From assembly GCF_024345535.1 (NCBI RefSeq), contig NZ_JAGQBH010000001.1, forward strand, positions 496,001 to 560,000: a stretch of DNA of 64,000 nt, written 5' to 3'. This DNA is from Cyanobium sp. N.Huapi 1H5 (lineage in GTDB: Bacteria; Cyanobacteriota; Cyanobacteriia; PCC-6307; Cyanobiaceae). Under the pieces are notes generated by a model that saw only the letters and a list, made by a program, of their open reading frames with translations, was not told the DNA's origin and made no database searches. The translations under genes and the position numbers were made by a program. Positions 1,877-55,123 of this stretch are shown one piece after another (position 1 is the stretch's first letter; each line of letters starts with the position of its first letter).

Positions 1877-2229
1877 CGGTCCTTGGCTTGGGGCCAATGG
1901 ATACGCTACCTCGCTTGCTCCTGTGAACGCTACTAATTCCCGATGGAGGGCGGGGTGGGGAGTTCCGATTTCTCGAGAAAGGTGCAATGAACTCTTGAGC
2001 CAACGCTGGCCATCACCTGGCCACATTGGGTCTGTGATATATGCGCACGAGGGAATAAGGGTTGATCGGTGGCAGCTCAGGCGTATGGCTATGTTAGAAG
2101 GAAAAACCACTTCCATCAAGCAGAAAGGATATAGAGATGGCTAAAGAAGAAGTATCGACTCTCGAAGTGAGATGGCAGCACTGCGAGAGCGACCTATAAT
2201 ATGTTAACACAAAGCTCAACCATCGACAC
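1877..2229. other. 353-base intergenic stretch
   Basis: No recognisable gene. The composition becomes more AT-rich than in the flanking housekeeping genes. It holds a possible 20-codon ORF (2137-2199, plus strand, AAGGAT upstream of the ATG), too short to call. It also contains a perfect TATAAT at 2195-2200, which could be the -10 element for the gene starting at 2230; no convincing -35 box was seen. Confidence 0.4.
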
Positions 2230-45690: not shown

Positions 45691-46088
45691 CAGATCGTCT
45701 CCAGCTCCGGAATGGCGCGGAGCTTCTCGTCGGCGCTGATCAGGGGCCGCCGGCCCTGCAGGGCCGTGGCGGCGATGAGGCGATCGGCCGGGTCGCCATG
45801 GCGGAACTGGGGGCCCCGGGAGAGCAGGGCGATCTCGGCGGTGATCGGCAGCACCTCCAGCCGCAACGCTTCGAGCAGGCGCCGCAGGTAGAGGGCCGGT
45901 GGCACGGCTTCCGGGAGGCTCAGCCGTCCGCGTTCGTGCAGCAGTGCCAGCTCCCAAAGCCTGATGTCGGCGATGGCCAGCTGGCCCTGGGCCCGCCCCT
46001 GCTCCAGAGCTGCTGCGGCGCGCCGTGACAGCCGGGCCGGCTCATGGGCCCAGAACAGCAGGACATGGGTGTCACAGATGGTCAGCAT
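45687..46088 (-). CDS. vapC: VapC-type PIN-domain toxin
   Basis: 133 residues. PIN RNase fold: first Asp in LTICDTHVLLFWA, conserved Glu in RLWELALLHERGRL, and the C-terminal Asp cluster HGDPADRLIAATAL with a final SADEKL. VapC toxins cleave specific RNAs. ATG at 46088 overlaps the end of the antitoxin gene by 17 bases; the stop overlaps the GNAT start. Confidence 0.87.
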   Translation of the reverse strand: MLTICDTHVLLFWAHEPARLSRRAAAALEQGRAQGQLAIADIRLWELALLHERGRLSLPEAVPPALYLRRLLEALRLEVLPITAEIALLSRGPQFRHGDPADRLIAATALQGRRPLISADEKLRAIPELETIW

Positions 46089-46326
46089 CACCGGCGCCTT
46101 CGAGATCAGCGTCGCCATTGGCAATCGAGGCGACGACATCCCCCAGCGTGACGCTGCCGGCCAGCCCCTCCAGCCAGCGGCGGGCCTCCTCGGCCGGGTC
46201 CTGTTCCGGCTCGATGCGGGCAATCACCCGGCCATGGGAGGTGACCTGAATGGCTTCCCCGGCCTGAACCCGCTTGAGCCAGGCCGGCAGGTTCTGGCGC
46301 AGGTGGGTCACGGAGACGCGCGCCAT
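46072..46326 (-). CDS. vapB: Phd/YefM-type antitoxin
   Basis: 84 residues beginning ARVSVTHLRQNLPAWLKRVQ and GEAIQVTSHGRVIARI, the Phd/YefM DNA-binding pattern; the acidic C-terminal half would neutralise the toxin. ATG at 46326 is preferred to an upstream in-frame start because the family match begins there. First gene of the vapB-vapC-GNAT operon and divergent from the integron integrase. Confidence 0.82.
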   Translation of the reverse strand: MARVSVTHLRQNLPAWLKRVQAGEAIQVTSHGRVIARIEPEQDPAEEARRWLEGLAGSVTLGDVVASIANGDADLEGAGDADHL

Positions 46327-46427
46327 GAAGGGCGTCTGTACATGGGGTCTGTACAGATTAGGGCTTGTGGTGATGGGGATTGGGACTGGCGTGGGAACTC
46401 TCAAGAGTCCCCCCCACCCTCAAGGCC

Positions 46428-47399
46428 ATGACCGACGCCTGCCGTTCCCCCGGCCTGATCCAGCGCTATCGCGAGGAGCTTCAGGTGCGCCATTACGCCC
46501 GCCGCACCGTGAACACCTACGAGCAGTGGCTGCGTCGCTTCCTGCGGTTTCACGGCAGGCGCCACCCCCGCACGATGGGCAGCGCCGAAGTGAACGCCTT
46601 TCTGAGCCACCTGGCGGTGGAGCTGCAGGTGAGCGCCTCCACCCAGAACCAGGCACTGGCGGCGCTGCTGTTTCTGTACCGGGAGCTGCTGGAGCGGGAT
46701 CTGGAGCTGGAGGGGGTGGTTCGGGCGCGGACACGGCGCCGGCTGCCGGTGGTGCTCAGCGAAGCGGAGGTGCGGGCGGTGCGCCAGCGACTGGAGGGAG
46801 AGCCAGCCCTGGTGGTGGGGCTGCTGTATGGAAGCGGGCTCCGGTTGATGGAGGCGCTTCGACTGCGAGTCAAAGATCTCGATGTTGAACGGCGTGAGCT
46901 CACGGTGCGCGACGGGAAAGGCGGCAAAGACCGGCTGACCGTGCTGCCCCAGAGCCTGGTGCCTCAGCTGCAGGAGCATCTGATGAAGGTGCGCCAGCTG
47001 CATCGGGGTGATCTGGTGGCGGGCTGGGGCCGGGTGGTGATGCCCTACGCCCTGGCGAGGAAGTATCCGAGGGCCGATCGGGAGTGGGCCTGGCAGTGGG
47101 TGTTTCCCCAACAGAACCGCTGGCATGATCGGGACTCAGGAACCCAGGGCCGCCACCACCGCGATCCGAGCGTGGTGCAGAAGGCGGTGAAGCGGGCCGT
47201 AGCCGAGGCGGGACTCACGAAGGCGGCCAGTTGCCACACCTTCCGCCACTCCTTTGCAACCCACCTGCTGGAACGGGGGCAGGACATCCGCACGATCCAG
47301 GAGCTGCTGGGACATCAGGACGTGAGCACCACCATGATCTACACCCATGTGCTGAATAGGGGGCCGCTCGGTGTCTGCAGCCCAGCAGACATGATGTAG
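46428..47399 (+). CDS. intI: integron integrase IntI
   Basis: Tyrosine recombinase of 323 residues that inserts and excises gene cassettes at attI and attC. Catalytic residues are all present: Arg139 ([10 protein letters not shown]), His270 and Arg273 (CHTFRH), His296 (GHQD) and Tyr305 (TMIYTH). Each sits exactly seven positions before its counterpart in IntI1 (Arg146, His277, Arg280, His303, Tyr312). The IntI-specific insertion before the His/Arg motif is visible ([20 protein letters not shown], about 206-225), which separates it from XerC/D. The end ([15 protein letters not shown]) is typical of IntI. ATG at 46428 is chosen by homology. It appears intact. No LexA box was recognised. Confidence 0.95.
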
Positions 47400-47411
47400 C
47401 CATGGCTACAT
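47394..47411. repeat. 18-bp perfect palindrome over the intI stop codon
   Basis: ATGTAGCCATGGCTACAT reads the same on both strands and includes the intI TAG stop (47397-47399). No T run follows, so it is not an ordinary terminator. It could be a dimeric protein-binding site at the edge of attI. Confidence 0.6.
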
Positions 47412-47577
47412 GTGGTTATCGGACCCGTGAACCACGGCCAACGACTTGGCCCTTCCAACTAAGATCTCTGTGCAGGAAAGGATTCTCGTCCCATGGCCGA
47501 TTGGCAACAGCTGGGGTTCACGGAATGGAGCAGAGGAAGGCCCGTGGTTCACGGAACCGTCCAATAAATAGTTGGGC
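47412..47577 (+). other. attI: putative attI region
   Basis: Non-coding DNA between intI and cassette 1. The recombination core is GTTGGGC at 47571-47577; it is the exact complement of the R'' core (GCCCAAC) of the attC ending cassette 1, as expected if cassette 1 was inserted here. Two direct copies of GGTTCACGG (47515-47523 and 47546-47554) lie upstream of the core and could be integrase-binding direct repeats like those of attI1. No clear cassette promoter was found. Confidence 0.6.
47425..47554. repeat. inverted repeat within putative attI
   Basis: CCGTGAACCACGGCC (47425-47439) and GGCCCGTGGTTCACGG (47539-47554) are inverted copies, differing by one inserted C, about 100 bases apart. The second arm contains one of the two GGTTCACGG direct repeats. 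Confidence 0.6.
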
Positions 47578-47634
47578 TAACTAACGCCAGTAAACCACAG
47601 AGTCAGAGCGGAAACGTAGTTTTTCTGCTGAAAC

Positions 47635-47967
47635 CTACAGGGGAGATGAATTCTCATTTCCATACCACTCCACCGCATATTCATAAAGGCTGTCAAGAAC
47701 CTCAGAAAGCTGTTTCCCACGCTCAGTCAATCTATATGCGACTCTAGGAACCGTGCCTTGCTCAACTTGACGGTCGATAAGCTGAATGGATTCCAGCAAG
47801 CGCAATCTATCTGCAAGGACCTTTGTGGATATTCCATCAACCTTGCGCTTCAGTTCACCAAAGTGCAATTCGCCACGGGAGCTTAGGATCCACAAGATGT
47901 AGATCGTCCACTGTGCCGAAATATGGCCAATTAATATTTCAAGCGGGCAGCACATCTGCTTGACCAT
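47635..47967 (-). CDS. HxlR-family transcriptional regulator (cassette 1)
   Basis: 110-residue winged-helix regulator. The family core is visible: CPLEILIGHISAQWTIYILWIL, then the recognition region GISTKVLADRLRLLESIQLI and the wing VAYRLTERGKQLSEVL. ATG at 47967 puts cysteines at positions 6 and 7, where the redox-sensing Cys lies in quinone- and diamide-responsive members such as YodB. It is divergent from the azoreductase gene 95 bases away, so it very likely controls that gene. It is transcribed against the array, so it needs its own promoter. Confidence 0.82.
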   Translation of the reverse strand: MVKQMCCPLEILIGHISAQWTIYILWILSSRGELHFGELKRKVDGISTKVLADRLRLLESIQLIDRQVEQGTVPRVAYRLTERGKQLSEVLDSLYEYAVEWYGNENSSPL

Positions 47968-48062
47968 TGGATGGAGTAGGTAGTTACCAAATGGAAACCA
48001 ATTGACTTTTGCGTCGGATGGCGCGAGGTTTGCGCTGTCCTGAGCAGGCCTAACGCTAGTCC

Positions 48063-48683
48063 ATGGGAACGCTACTGCACATTGACTCAAGTCCTCGCGG
48101 CGAGAATTCCAGCTCGCGACTACTTGCCAGCACCTTCATTGCAGCATGGAAGGAGAACCATCCTGACGATCATATTATATATCGCGACCTGAAGAATACG
48201 TGTATACCTCATATCACAGAAGAATGGATTGCCGCAGATTTTACCCCAAGGGATGCATTGACTGCGGAGGCGCGTCAAGTGCTTGAACTGTCCGACATAT
48301 TGGTAGACGAGTTCCTTGCCGCAGACAGATGTTTATACAGCGTTCCGATGTATAATTTCGGAATCCCATCCAGTTTTAAAGCCTACATCGATAATCTTGT
48401 TCGATTTGGTCGAACATTTACATCTGATCACGGATGCTACCAAGGGCTTGCAAAAGAAAAAAAGGTTCTATTTATCACCGCTCGCGGCGTTGAGTATGGC
48501 TCAAACTCGCCCTACCACGGATGGGATGCACAAGAGCCTGGGCTAAGGTATGCATTCCAGTTCATGGGAGTTTCTGACATCAGCTTTATTCATGCATGTG
48601 GCCTTGACTTGGGAGAGGAGTCTCGGCGCAGCAGTATTGACAAGGCCAAAGGCGAAGTGAAGAGCTTTTTGTCATCCTGGTAG
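48063..48683 (+). CDS. azoR: FMN-dependent NADH-azoreductase (cassette 1)
   Basis: Flavodoxin-like quinone/azo reductase of 206 residues. The FMN phosphate loop is HIDSSPRGENSSSR near the N-terminus, followed by SVPMYNFGIPSSFKAYIDNL and VRFGRTF, all typical of AzoR. It reduces quinones and azo compounds with NAD(P)H by two-electron transfer. Paired with a divergent HxlR regulator in the same cassette, as in Bacillus yodB/azoR control. Base composition is clearly lower in GC than the host. Confidence 0.85.
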   Translation: MGTLLHIDSSPRGENSSSRLLASTFIAAWKENHPDDHIIYRDLKNTCIPHITEEWIAADFTPRDALTAEARQVLELSDILVDEFLAADRCLYSVPMYNFGIPSSFKAYIDNLVRFGRTFTSDHGCYQGLAKEKKVLFITARGVEYGSNSPYHGWDAQEPGLRYAFQFMGVSDISFIHACGLDLGEESRRSSIDKAKGEVKSFLSSW

Positions 48684-48693
48684 TTGACGAGCA

Positions 48694-48778
48694 GCCCAAC
48701 ATCAAGATCCAGCGGACGAGATCAGTAGAGTGTCCAAGTCGACCATCTCGTGCTCGCCGCTGATCTTGAGCGTTATGC
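48694..48778 (+). other. attC1 (end of cassette 1)
   Basis: 85 bases: R'' GCCCAAC (48694-48700), R' GTTATGC (48772-48778). Inner arms ATCAAGATC...AGCGG and CCGCTGATCTTGAGCG pair to form the attC hairpin. Same sequence family as attC4, attC5 and attC8. Confidence 0.85.
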
Positions 48779-48843: not shown

Positions 48844-49740
48844 GTGGAAGCAAAGATTGACATCTCGTCTAAGAGCCTTGAGAAGGGTTTAGATATTGCG
48901 AAAGAGTTTCTTCAGAGGGTGATTGGGCCTGGACTTGAAGAGGCTGGTCTTCTGCTTAAGGAAAGCATTGCTTTGTGGAGATTCAGAAATCAAGTCGCCA
49001 TTCTCGAAAAGGCACATGAAATATGCCAGAGGAAGGGAATAAGACCCAGCCCAATATCGCTAAAGCTTCTTTGCCCATTGATGGACAGCGCCTCTTTAGA
49101 GGATGACCCTGACCTGCAGAATAAGTGGGCAACACTGCTCTCAAACATGGTCGATTCAGAAAAGAATATTCAGAATCATGTATTCCCCTACATCCTTGGG
49201 CAGCTGTCGCTACCCGAATATGCGCTTCTGGATGTCGTAGTTCGTGAGAAGCGTGACCGAGTTAAGCGGCTTGGCGAGGAGCTGGCAAAGCACAACGAGC
49301 ACTTTGGCGACCTTGAGAATGGGATTAATCAGAAGCTCGCCGAAGTGAAGCAGTCAATCGCTTCAGAGAAGGAGCTGCCAAATGGGTTTGAACAACTTAA
49401 GAAGATTAGTCAGTTAGTTGCGCAGAGGGGCAAGCTCAATTCCGAGCTTGCGGGCTTAAGGGTTAAGGGCAGACAGATTGAGTTCAGGATTGCCGAACCG
49501 CAACAGATACCCGACGGGGCCTTAAAAGATTTTGAAGTTTCAAATCTTATACGACTGGGCTTGGCAAAGTTCCTTCGCGAGCCCTTTGCCGATCCTGTGC
49601 AGATTCAAATTCCTAATGATCCCAGGGATGATTACCTGTCAACAGAAGTAGAAGTTATTGTTGAATACACTGATACGTATGTCATCACTGAGCTTGCGGA
49701 GCTCTTAATTCTGGCCTGTTCAGAAGACTTGGATGCATAA
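48844..49740 (+). CDS. Abi-alpha (DUF4393) protein (cassette 2)
   Basis: 298 residues from a GTG start. The N-terminal 100 residues carry the Abi_alpha/DUF4393 pattern: IGPGLEEAGLLLKESIALWR, FRNQVAILEKAHEICQRKGI, LKLLCPLMDSASLEDDPDLQ and NKWATLLSNMVDS. A coiled-coil region follows (about 135-215). Family members are linked to abortive phage infection, but the mechanism is not known. Leader of about 70 bases after the preceding attC; the stop overlaps the attC2 R'' core. Confidence 0.8.
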   Translation: MEAKIDISSKSLEKGLDIAKEFLQRVIGPGLEEAGLLLKESIALWRFRNQVAILEKAHEICQRKGIRPSPISLKLLCPLMDSASLEDDPDLQNKWATLLSNMVDSEKNIQNHVFPYILGQLSLPEYALLDVVVREKRDRVKRLGEELAKHNEHFGDLENGINQKLAEVKQSIASEKELPNGFEQLKKISQLVAQRGKLNSELAGLRVKGRQIEFRIAEPQQIPDGALKDFEVSNLIRLGLAKFLREPFADPVQIQIPNDPRDDYLSTEVEVIVEYTDTYVITELAELLILACSEDLDA

Positions 49741-49824
49741 CATGCCTCTGGAGTGGGCAGGCCGCCATCGATGCTCTGCTCGCGTTGAAATGTTATTGCC
49801 TGCCACTCAGAGGCAGCGTTATGC
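49735..49824 (+). other. attC2 (end of cassette 2)
   Basis: 90 bases: R'' GCATAAC (49735-49741) overlapping the stop codon, R' GTTATGC (49818-49824). R'' is the exact complement of the GTTATGC that starts cassette 2. Arms GGAGTGGGCAGGC and CCTGCCACTC pair. Same family as attC6, attC9 and attC11. Confidence 0.87.
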
Positions 49825-49901
49825 CTCCTGCGCCAAGGCATGAAATGGCAAGTCAATGGAAAAACACCTATCATCACTGACAATTTAGGTGAGGTCTGGC
49901 A

Positions 49902-50861
49902 ATGCAAGACGAACAACCCAGTCCTGCCAATGGAAGTGAAGACGGTAAATCCCCTCAGCCTCAGAACTCGACCAATGCATCACAAGGTTCTCAAGCAGTG
50001 AATGCAGCAAAGCCTGCCAGTGTGATCAAGAACGCCAAGACAGCCCAGCCGATTGAAATGCTGGATGAACTTCTTTTTGTAGACACAAATGTATTGCTTG
50101 ACTTTTATCGAATTCGAAACAGCGATATTAGCCTTGAATACCTAAAGCAGCTTGAGGCATGCAAAGATCGGCTAATCATTACTTCTCAAGTTGAAATGGA
50201 ATACAAGAAGAACAGGCAAGAAGCCATCATTGAATCCCTGAATAGCTTTGGCTCACCAGATTGGAATAAGCTTAGCGGGCCGGCCATTGTTGCCGATCTT
50301 CAAGCAATGAAGATGATTGGAAAGCAGAAGGATGAAATCACGAAACAACAGAAGAGGGTTAATGAGAAAATTCAAATGATCCTTAAGAATCCAACTAATA
50401 ATGATCCTGTTTACCAGTGCTTGCAGCGTCTCTTTAAGAATAGATCAAGCTACAATCTGTCGCGCGAGAAAAGCACTCGGTTTACGGTAAGGAATCTCGC
50501 AAAGAAAAGATTCATCCTTGGCTACCCACCTCGAAAAAAGAATGAGACATCAATCGGCGATTCGGTAAACTGGGAATGGATTGTCCAGTGCGCAGTAGAC
50601 AGCGGCAAGCATATCATCATCGTTACTCGGGACAAAGACTACGGAGCGATCTATAAAGGCAGTTCATTTCTTAATGATTGGCTACGTCAAGAGTTTTCCG
50701 AGCGCGTCAGCCGAAAACGGAAGATAATTCTTACTGAGAAACTAGCAATTGCCCTTAAGCTAGTGCATGCTGCTGTCACCAAAGAGATGGAAGAAGAGGA
50801 GGATCGGATCATAGCCGAAGTGGTTGACAGTTCTCCTGAATCGTCTGTCGATGAGGCATAA
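49902..50861 (+). CDS. PIN-domain (DUF4935-like) nuclease (cassette 3)
   Basis: 319 residues. Residues 1-50 are a polar, Gln/Ser/Asn-rich leader. The PIN domain starts LLFVDTNVLLDFYRIRNSDI with the first catalytic Asp at 61, continues with TSQVEMEYKKNRQEA (conserved Glu), and ends SIGDSVNWEWIVQCAVDSG and IIIVTRDKDYG (later acidic residues). The spacing fits DUF4935-type PIN proteins, with a helical insertion. The C-terminus is acidic. Likely a metal-dependent RNase; a defence or toxin role is inferred from family and setting. No antitoxin gene is present in the cassette. Confidence 0.75.
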   Translation: MQDEQPSPANGSEDGKSPQPQNSTNASQGSQAVNAAKPASVIKNAKTAQPIEMLDELLFVDTNVLLDFYRIRNSDISLEYLKQLEACKDRLIITSQVEMEYKKNRQEAIIESLNSFGSPDWNKLSGPAIVADLQAMKMIGKQKDEITKQQKRVNEKIQMILKNPTNNDPVYQCLQRLFKNRSSYNLSREKSTRFTVRNLAKKRFILGYPPRKKNETSIGDSVNWEWIVQCAVDSGKHIIIVTRDKDYGAIYKGSSFLNDWLRQEFSERVSRKRKIILTEKLAIALKLVHAAVTKEMEEEEDRIIAEVVDSSPESSVDEA

Positions 50862-53329: not shown

Positions 53330-53413
53330 GTATAACATCAAGATTCAGAAGATGGTAGCAAAGGGCGACACCTATGCCAAGGACAATGTCCGCTTCTGAT
53401 CTTGGCGTTGGGC
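53330..53413 (+). other. attC5 (end of cassette 5)
   Basis: 84 bases: R'' GTATAAC (53330-53336), R' GTTGGGC (53407-53413). Arms ATCAAGATTCAGAAG and CTTCTGATCTTGG pair. R'' exactly complements the GTTATAC that starts cassette 5. attC1/4/8 family. Confidence 0.86.
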
Positions 53414-54786: not shown

Positions 54787-55039
54787 CCCTGGTGAGCAGG
54801 TCACTGACGTTGCGTTGACAGAAGACAGGCTGATCGTCGACCTGGCTGACGGTCGTTCTATCTCGGTACCGTTGGCTTGGTTCCCAAGGCTTCTACATGC
54901 AACCTCCCAGGAGCGTGACAACTGGGAGATTGCAGGGGCTGGCTACGGAATCCACTGGCCAGATGTTGATGAGGATTTAAGTGTGGAAGGCCTGCTTCGA
55001 GGTGCGCCAGCGCCCCAGGCAAAGGCTCTGGTCAGCTAA
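54779..55039 (+). CDS. DUF2442 protein (cassette 7, putative toxin-antitoxin partner)
   Basis: 86 residues: TDVALTEDRLIVDLADGRSI, VPLAWFPRLLHATSQER and GYGIHWPDVDEDLSVEGLL, the classical DUF2442 signature. Overlaps the DUF4160 gene by 8 bases and ends inside the attC7 R'' core. Expected to act with its neighbour. Confidence 0.82.
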   Translation: MANPGEQVTDVALTEDRLIVDLADGRSISVPLAWFPRLLHATSQERDNWEIAGAGYGIHWPDVDEDLSVEGLLRGAPAPQAKALVS

Positions 55040-55123
55040 CACCGCCATGCACCTGAGCCGCCGCCGTAACGTTATACTCTTCGCCGCGCAAACCTTGCGG
55101 CCAGGTGATAGCGAGCGTTAGCT
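55034..55123 (+). other. attC7 (end of cassette 7)
   Basis: 90 bases: R'' AGCTAAC (55034-55040), R' GTTAGCT (55117-55123), perfectly complementary. Inner arms CACCTGAGCCGC and GCGGCCAGGTG pair. Not obviously in either of the two main attC families. Confidence 0.85.

Follow-up and report, generated by a model that had tools for sequence, protein, structure and literature searches.

The attI1 site is bound by the IntI1 integrase at four regions, L, R, DR1 and DR2 (PMC3518468, PMC12901181), and its direct repeats favour attI × attC recombination, a role as topological filters having been suggested for them (PMC8946536). Attachment sites longer than the 65 bp of attI1 have precedents in attI3 (131 bp) and in the undefined attI2 (about 311 bp) (PMC8876359; PMC12901181); the accessible portions of these reports describe no distal dyad, and our comparison with the two sites is one of descriptions rather than of sequences. 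The attIA site of Vibrio cholerae, which like the site described here is the cognate attI of a chromosomal integron, is reported to be without direct repeats (PMC8946536). In the reverse integrons of the Treponema denticola type, intI is transcribed towards attI and the cassettes, and the attI site is described, in the accessible part of the report, only by an R-site-like GTTAGGT motif (PMC3607928).

The integron described here resides in the 3.1-Mb genome of a Vulcanococcus-like picocyanobacterium (Cyanobiaceae), and the closest named relative of its integrase (IntI) is that of Vulcanococcus limneticus. Within the window (the whole 64-kb stretch of DNA that was analysed), the intI product matches the TIGR02249 model with 451.6 bits (1.5e-135; cut-off 265), aligns over approximately its full length with IntI4 (PDB 2a3v; 2.4e-88), and contains the PF00589 and PF13495 domains; an alternative TTG start codon is possible at position 46380. 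Nine attC sites were located between positions 48694 and 59384 with a covariance model (E values from 1e-12 to 1e-22), all of them in a single orientation with the bottom strand on the minus strand; this model was trained on six attC sites of the window, and three of the nine finds are thus independent.

46428..47399, plus strand: intI, integron integrase gene, coding for a tyrosine recombinase (TIGR02249, PF00589, PF13495, PDB 2a3v)
48694..48778, plus strand (bottom strand on minus): attC of cassette 1, 80.8 bits
49735..49824, plus strand: attC, 85.4 bits
52553..52637, plus strand: attC, 60.1 bits, outside the training set of the model
53330..53413, plus strand: attC, 64.6 bits
54412..54502, plus strand: attC, 59.3 bits, outside the training set
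55034..55123, plus strand: attC, 77.4 bits
55760..55843, plus strand: attC, 74.8 bits
57270..57361, plus strand: attC, 80.7 bits
59294..59384, plus strand: attC, 52.9 bits, outside the training set

The intI gene (plus strand) is transcribed towards attI and the cassettes, the bottom strand of the downstream attC sites is the minus strand, and attI is positioned 3' of intI. Since intI and the cassettes share their reading direction, the integron of the window is reverse-oriented; the classical layout, with attC sites 5' of intI, is present in the cyanobacterial loci L026, L028, L031 and L073. The earlier note had interpreted the region behind intI as the attI site of an integron, an assignment that is borne out by the integrase matches, by the nine attC sites of the same orientation, and by a GTTRRRY core with attI1-like repeats.

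The same genome harbours a second integron integrase (L002; C1, at about 318-319 kb) that is 69% identical over the matched part and possesses its own attI with a similar spacing and different half-sites. A lone attC-like match in the opposite orientation was found at window positions 1998-2099, about 44 kb from intI (35.7 bits; E 1e-7). A small gene divergent from intI (46072-46404, minus strand) is a candidate antitoxin gene, and a GGCGTCTGTACA / GGGGTCTGTACA repeat located between the two genes (46331-46355) could serve as an operator. Cassette 1 (47638-48683) carries two divergent genes, of which the minus-strand one codes for an HxlR-type regulator and the plus-strand one is azoreductase-like with a flavodoxin fold, and this arrangement implies that promoters of its own may be present there. 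Abi_alpha (abortive infection) and PIN_12 domains are encoded by cassettes at 48844-50861, which suggests a phage-defence cargo.

The following elements lie between the end of intI and the first cassette.

47394..47411, no strand: perfect 18-bp palindrome ATGTAGCCATGGCTACAT over the TAG stop codon of intI (47397-47399), lineage-specific
47412..47435, no strand: DRa, distal dyad GTGGTTATCGGACCCGTGAACCAC of 24 bp with its centre at 47423/47424, probably two head-to-head IntI-type half-sites (covariation, spacing, match to DRc, other phyla)
47513..47524, plus strand: DRb, DR2-like single half-site GGGGTTCACGGA (relatives have it at one fixed offset before the core)
47544..47555, plus strand: DRc, single half-site GTGGTTCACGGA, DR1-like, adjoining the L box (motif search aligned on the core)
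47556..47567, minus strand: ACCGTCCAATAA, putative L box of the core, in the opposite orientation to DRc (position and conservation in relatives)
47571..47577, plus strand: R box of the GTTRRRY type with the crossover point, G^TTGGGC, bordering cassette 1 (motif and relatives)

This site resembles attI1 in its GTTRRRY core cut at G^TT, in its inverted L box, for which ACCGTCCAATAA is proposed by analogy with attI1, and in its two direct-repeat half-sites upstream of L; the attI1 repeats themselves, GATGTTATGGAGCAG and GATGTTACGCAGCAG in the plasmid locus L280, are similar to the half-site of the window. However, the repeats of attI1 are spaced by 19 bp, whereas DRb and DRc are 31 bp apart, and while attI1 has four binding regions, the site of the window adds a third, palindromic repeat about 147 bp upstream of the crossover. 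Furthermore, attI is found upstream of the intI start in class 1 integrons but downstream of intI in the window. Measured from centre to centre, DRa is followed after about 101 bp by DRb and after a further 31 bp by the DRc:L:R assembly. The centre of DRb precedes the crossover G by 46 bp, and DRb occurs at one sharp offset before the core among the relatives; the sequences of close relatives part ways from the core at 47571-47577 onward.

Two direct repeats and a long inverted repeat had already been reported in the earlier note. The former were found as GGTTCACGG at 47515-47523 and 47546-47554; the latter, which had been placed at 47425-47439 and 47539-47554, was found nearby, at 47420-47437 with 47542-47559 (89% over 18 nt). 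Overlooked at that time was the dyad structure of DRa: GTGGTTATCGGACCCGTGAACCAC combines two opposed copies of the half-site found again at DRb and DRc, which explains why one arm looks inverted relative to the core-side repeat. We consider it likely that the segment 47412-47577 is an extended attI of a reverse-oriented integron, consisting of the core, DRb and DRc, and the distal dyad DRa bound by IntI.

The evidence for a role of DRa comes primarily from its relatives. A set of 93 distinct 3' flanks of intI from Cyanobiaceae was assembled from IntI relatives of the same genus or family, from further stretches of their genomes, and from named relatives; DRa, DRb, DRc and the core proved to be conserved in this comparison with other strains, which had been advocated before. 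At the place of DRa, the relatives carry dyads of different sequence, several of them perfect over 22-24 bp, and in roughly half of the loci the dyad is centred 27 nt after the stop codon begins. Fully palindromic and yet quite different DRa sequences are present, for instance, in L125/L181 (GTGGTTCTCTGACCAGAGAACCAC), L143/L145/L170 (ATCTTAGGCGGATCCGCCTAAGAT) and L184 (ATGTTCTGCGGGTCCGCAGAACAT). Across about 80 Cyanobiaceae integrons, the arms of DRa covary (z values between 5 and 9; 0 of 5000 permutations), although these and all other permutation and Fisher values given here overstate independence, as the loci are related to each other. The first fitting of the dyad centres used dyad information, which could flatter the covariation, and a second calculation therefore relied on centres chosen in advance. 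With stop+27 as the centre, 457 arm pairs were counted versus 320±15 after permutation (n=75), and 199 versus 144±11 when only integrons below 85% IntI identity were considered (n=38); neither value was reached in 5000 permutations. The fitted centres give the same answer, and control centres mostly had no effect (largest z of 3, at stop+47). A good dyad is absent from some Cyanobiaceae loci (L002, L023 and L169 keep the GGACCCG half only), and about ten loci are devoid of a recognisable core. A group with TGA stop codons (L021, L146, L147, L152, L177) has no recognisable core at the usual distance, and some of its members keep a dyad, e.g. L177 with TGCATCACGGTTCCGGAGATGCA.

The letters of DRa follow those of the repeat next to the core in the same integron. 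With fixed positions, the left arm of DRa agrees with its own DRc at 5.25 of 10 positions and with the DRc of other integrons at 4.08 of 10 (z 6.1, n=64); below 85% IntI identity, the corresponding values are 4.64 and 3.51 (z 4.1, n=33), and fitted positions yield z values between 6 and 7. That DRa matches its own DRc better than those of other integrons points to a single recogniser evolving together with the integron. Moreover, the DRa sequences of integrons within one genome differ (L001 and L002 in G000; L018, L142 and L145 in G029), and the IntI protein of each integron hence fits better as the recogniser than a host regulator does. Because the repeats change together from integron to integron, they are very probably integrase sites; likewise, the integrase probably binds DRa, since the relatives keep the symmetry of this element and its distance to the core while its letters change.

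This distance is the second property that sets DRa apart. The centre of DRa is 144-148 bp away from the G of the core in 26 of the 33 representatives that share less than 85% IntI identity, and the intervening spacer is unalignable despite its constant length: its tested part is 72.8±1.1 nt long, with a pairwise identity of 0.496 as compared with 0.479 after shuffling. In Cyanobiaceae loci where 34-35 nt rather than 27 nt separate the stop codon from DRa, the distance to the core is still 146-148 bp. Minor distance classes exist (about 97, 116-122 and 136-142 bp, and one locus at 177 bp), and the value of 147 bp is therefore not absolute.

The same layout was recognised by eye in the flanks of reverse integrons from Chlorobiota, Planctomycetota, Desulfuromonas, Methylomirabilota, Neomarinimicrobiota and Treponema. 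Both a generic score for a dyad plus repeat and the half-site matrix of the Cyanobiaceae were too weak to separate signal in non-Cyanobiaceae loci, for which a comparison aligned on the core was used instead. In eleven pooled loci from Chlorobiota, Planctomycetota and Desulfuromonas, dyads are enriched at the offset of 145-150 bp predicted from the Cyanobiaceae (Fisher test, 2e-6), and sequences at this offset match their own DRc (7e-8), values that are optimistic in that several of these loci are related and some are not significant alone. Perfect dyads are present in Planctomycetota (L048, GGTTTATACAGTCTGTATAAACC; L279, CGTCTTATACAGACTGTATAAGACG). The dyad overlaps the stop codon in the Chlorobiota loci L210 and L217; it lies within the coding end of intI in L241, and about 90 nt past the stop codon in L222. 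Since its position relative to the stop codon varies in this way, the core and not the end of the gene is the point of reference. In 80 loci, mostly non-reverse or unsorted, a dyad 3' of intI reached p<0.05 in four cases, which is near chance, and two of these are terminator-like hairpins.

Classical integrons and Cyanobiaceae each have a clade to themselves in the IntI tree (97/94 and 100/99, respectively), while all other sampled integrons are reverse integrons. Treponema shares with the window the direction of intI and, in some of its integrons, possibly a dyad at 122-127 bp, an offset class that was chosen after looking (p about 0.008); a per-position dyad profile shows no peak at 125 in Treponema, and we regard this dyad as suggestive. 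Unlike in Treponema, the IntI proteins of the Cyanobiaceae form a clade of their own, mostly with the 147-bp spacing. In the open-access literature searched, we found no description of a distal dyad in attI; much of the attI literature lies outside that set, and with respect to the former, the extended attI with its distal dyad is an apparently undescribed variant. Upstream of intI, four cyanobacterial loci of classical orientation (L073, L026, L028, L110) contain several tandem dyads of the TTATGCGGAA...TTCTGCCTAT type before the core, and their attI thus resembles an array of IntI-type dyads. In the proteobacterial loci L081, L072 and L074, a perfect or near-perfect dyad adjoins the core upstream of intI (e.g. 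AGTATACACCGCTTGCGGTGTATACT in L081), together with an additional upstream TTATACACC half-site.

In the extended attI that we propose, the crossover core (the L box and G^TTGGGC) would be the point of recombination, DRb and DRc would serve as single integrase half-sites in direct repeat, the counterparts of attI1's DR2 and DR1, respectively, and DRa would offer two head-to-head copies of the same half-site on which IntI may be bound as a dimer. Bending or looping of the DNA might then keep DRa and the core together within a higher-order complex, which the constant distance between them would reflect, and this complex could control when or how attI joins in attC insertion. Within the idea of a distal dyad, simple extra binding or a control of transcription fits as well as looping; it is possible that DRa governs transcription, with no promoter or terminator match in support. 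A more elaborate version, which we put forward tentatively, holds that IntI dimers bound to the distal dyad synapse in cis with those bound to the core via a loop of about 147 bp, and that the resulting state, self-inhibited or primed, has to be displaced by an incoming attC; just as tentatively, the site would be a built-in switch for cassette capture that is conserved across several phyla. The approximately 14 helical turns to which 147 bp correspond are arithmetic at 10.5 bp per turn and not evidence of periodicity.

It is unlikely that DRa is instead the operator of a non-IntI regulator, encoded by the host or the element, for the transcription of the array or of intI. Dimeric repressors typically have operators of this form, a dyad of 20-24 bp, and its location between intI and the array would be suitable, but an operator for a single host regulator would not be expected to track its own DRc or to differ between integrons of the same genome (G000 L001/L002; G029 L018/L145), and there is no promoter-like match nearby: a search of positions 46200-48200 revealed no match to a sigma-70-like promoter or a terminator. 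Slightly less probable still, in our assessment, is an RNA hairpin after the intI stop codon that acts between intI and the cassettes, be it as a terminator, an attenuator or an insulator. In most loci DRa does come shortly after the end of intI, covariation of the arms is also compatible with an RNA stem, and the RNA of the window folds at this position (-10.3 kcal/mol); however, this fold is just slightly better than that of shuffled sequences (z -1.5), a T-run is missing, no GC-rich hairpin followed by a T-run was detected in 46200-48200, and an Rfam scan of the window gave no match. Furthermore, an RNA stem has no need for the match between DRa and the single repeats DRb and DRc, nor for a distance to the core that is kept while that to the stop codon shifts (L210, L217, L241, L222). 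That DRa is a functionless relic of a duplicated attI core appears very improbable: its organisation does equal that of the DR1:L dyad beside the core, and tandem dyads occur in several cyanobacterial attI upstream regions, but a relic should decay, whereas the two arms of DRa change in step with one another and with DRc, and the distance to the core stays within about ±2 bp over several phyla despite a spacer that cannot be aligned.

The earlier note had attributed a special role to the palindrome across the stop codon, which is present as described at 47394-47411, directly adjoins DRa, and is the longest perfect even palindrome within the 64-kb window, in which 0.55 perfect palindromes of 18 bp are expected (0.0016 per 184-bp stretch). 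Among the 19 close loci compared, it is perfect in two (L001, the window, and L194); 6-9 of its 9 pairs are kept in a close subclade of ten members (7-9 in most of them) and 3-6 in the rest of the compared set, and compensating changes were not found in any of the 19. As the key element of the region, it was ruled out by this comparison with relatives. The least probable of all readings is that this palindrome is itself functional, as its perfect form here and in L194 and its near-perfect form in most of the close subclade might suggest, for it has decayed without compensation in L003, L005-L008 and L010, its left arm is dictated by the stop codon and the last codon, about half a palindrome of this length is expected per window anyway, and the dyad that other reverse integrons conserve is placed inside, across, or tens of bases past the stop codon. 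The palindrome is thus not conserved in other strains; it is probably incidental and lineage-specific and lies outside the extended attI. Judged from the sequences compared, it is conservation, and not chance statistics within the window, that sets the apparently meaningful parts (DRa, DRb, DRc and the core) apart from it.

Of all parts of the integron, attI is the least well understood. The fixed layout described here (a distal dyad, about 101 bp, DR2, 31 bp, and DR1:L:R) would make attI recognisable from sequence in reverse-oriented integrons, and, as its arms and repeats agree, would give the half-site of each IntI directly. Many natural pairs of IntI proteins and sites would be on offer for working out the DNA specificity of IntI, and the layout predicts that IntI forms a complex exceeding the usual core synapse in size.
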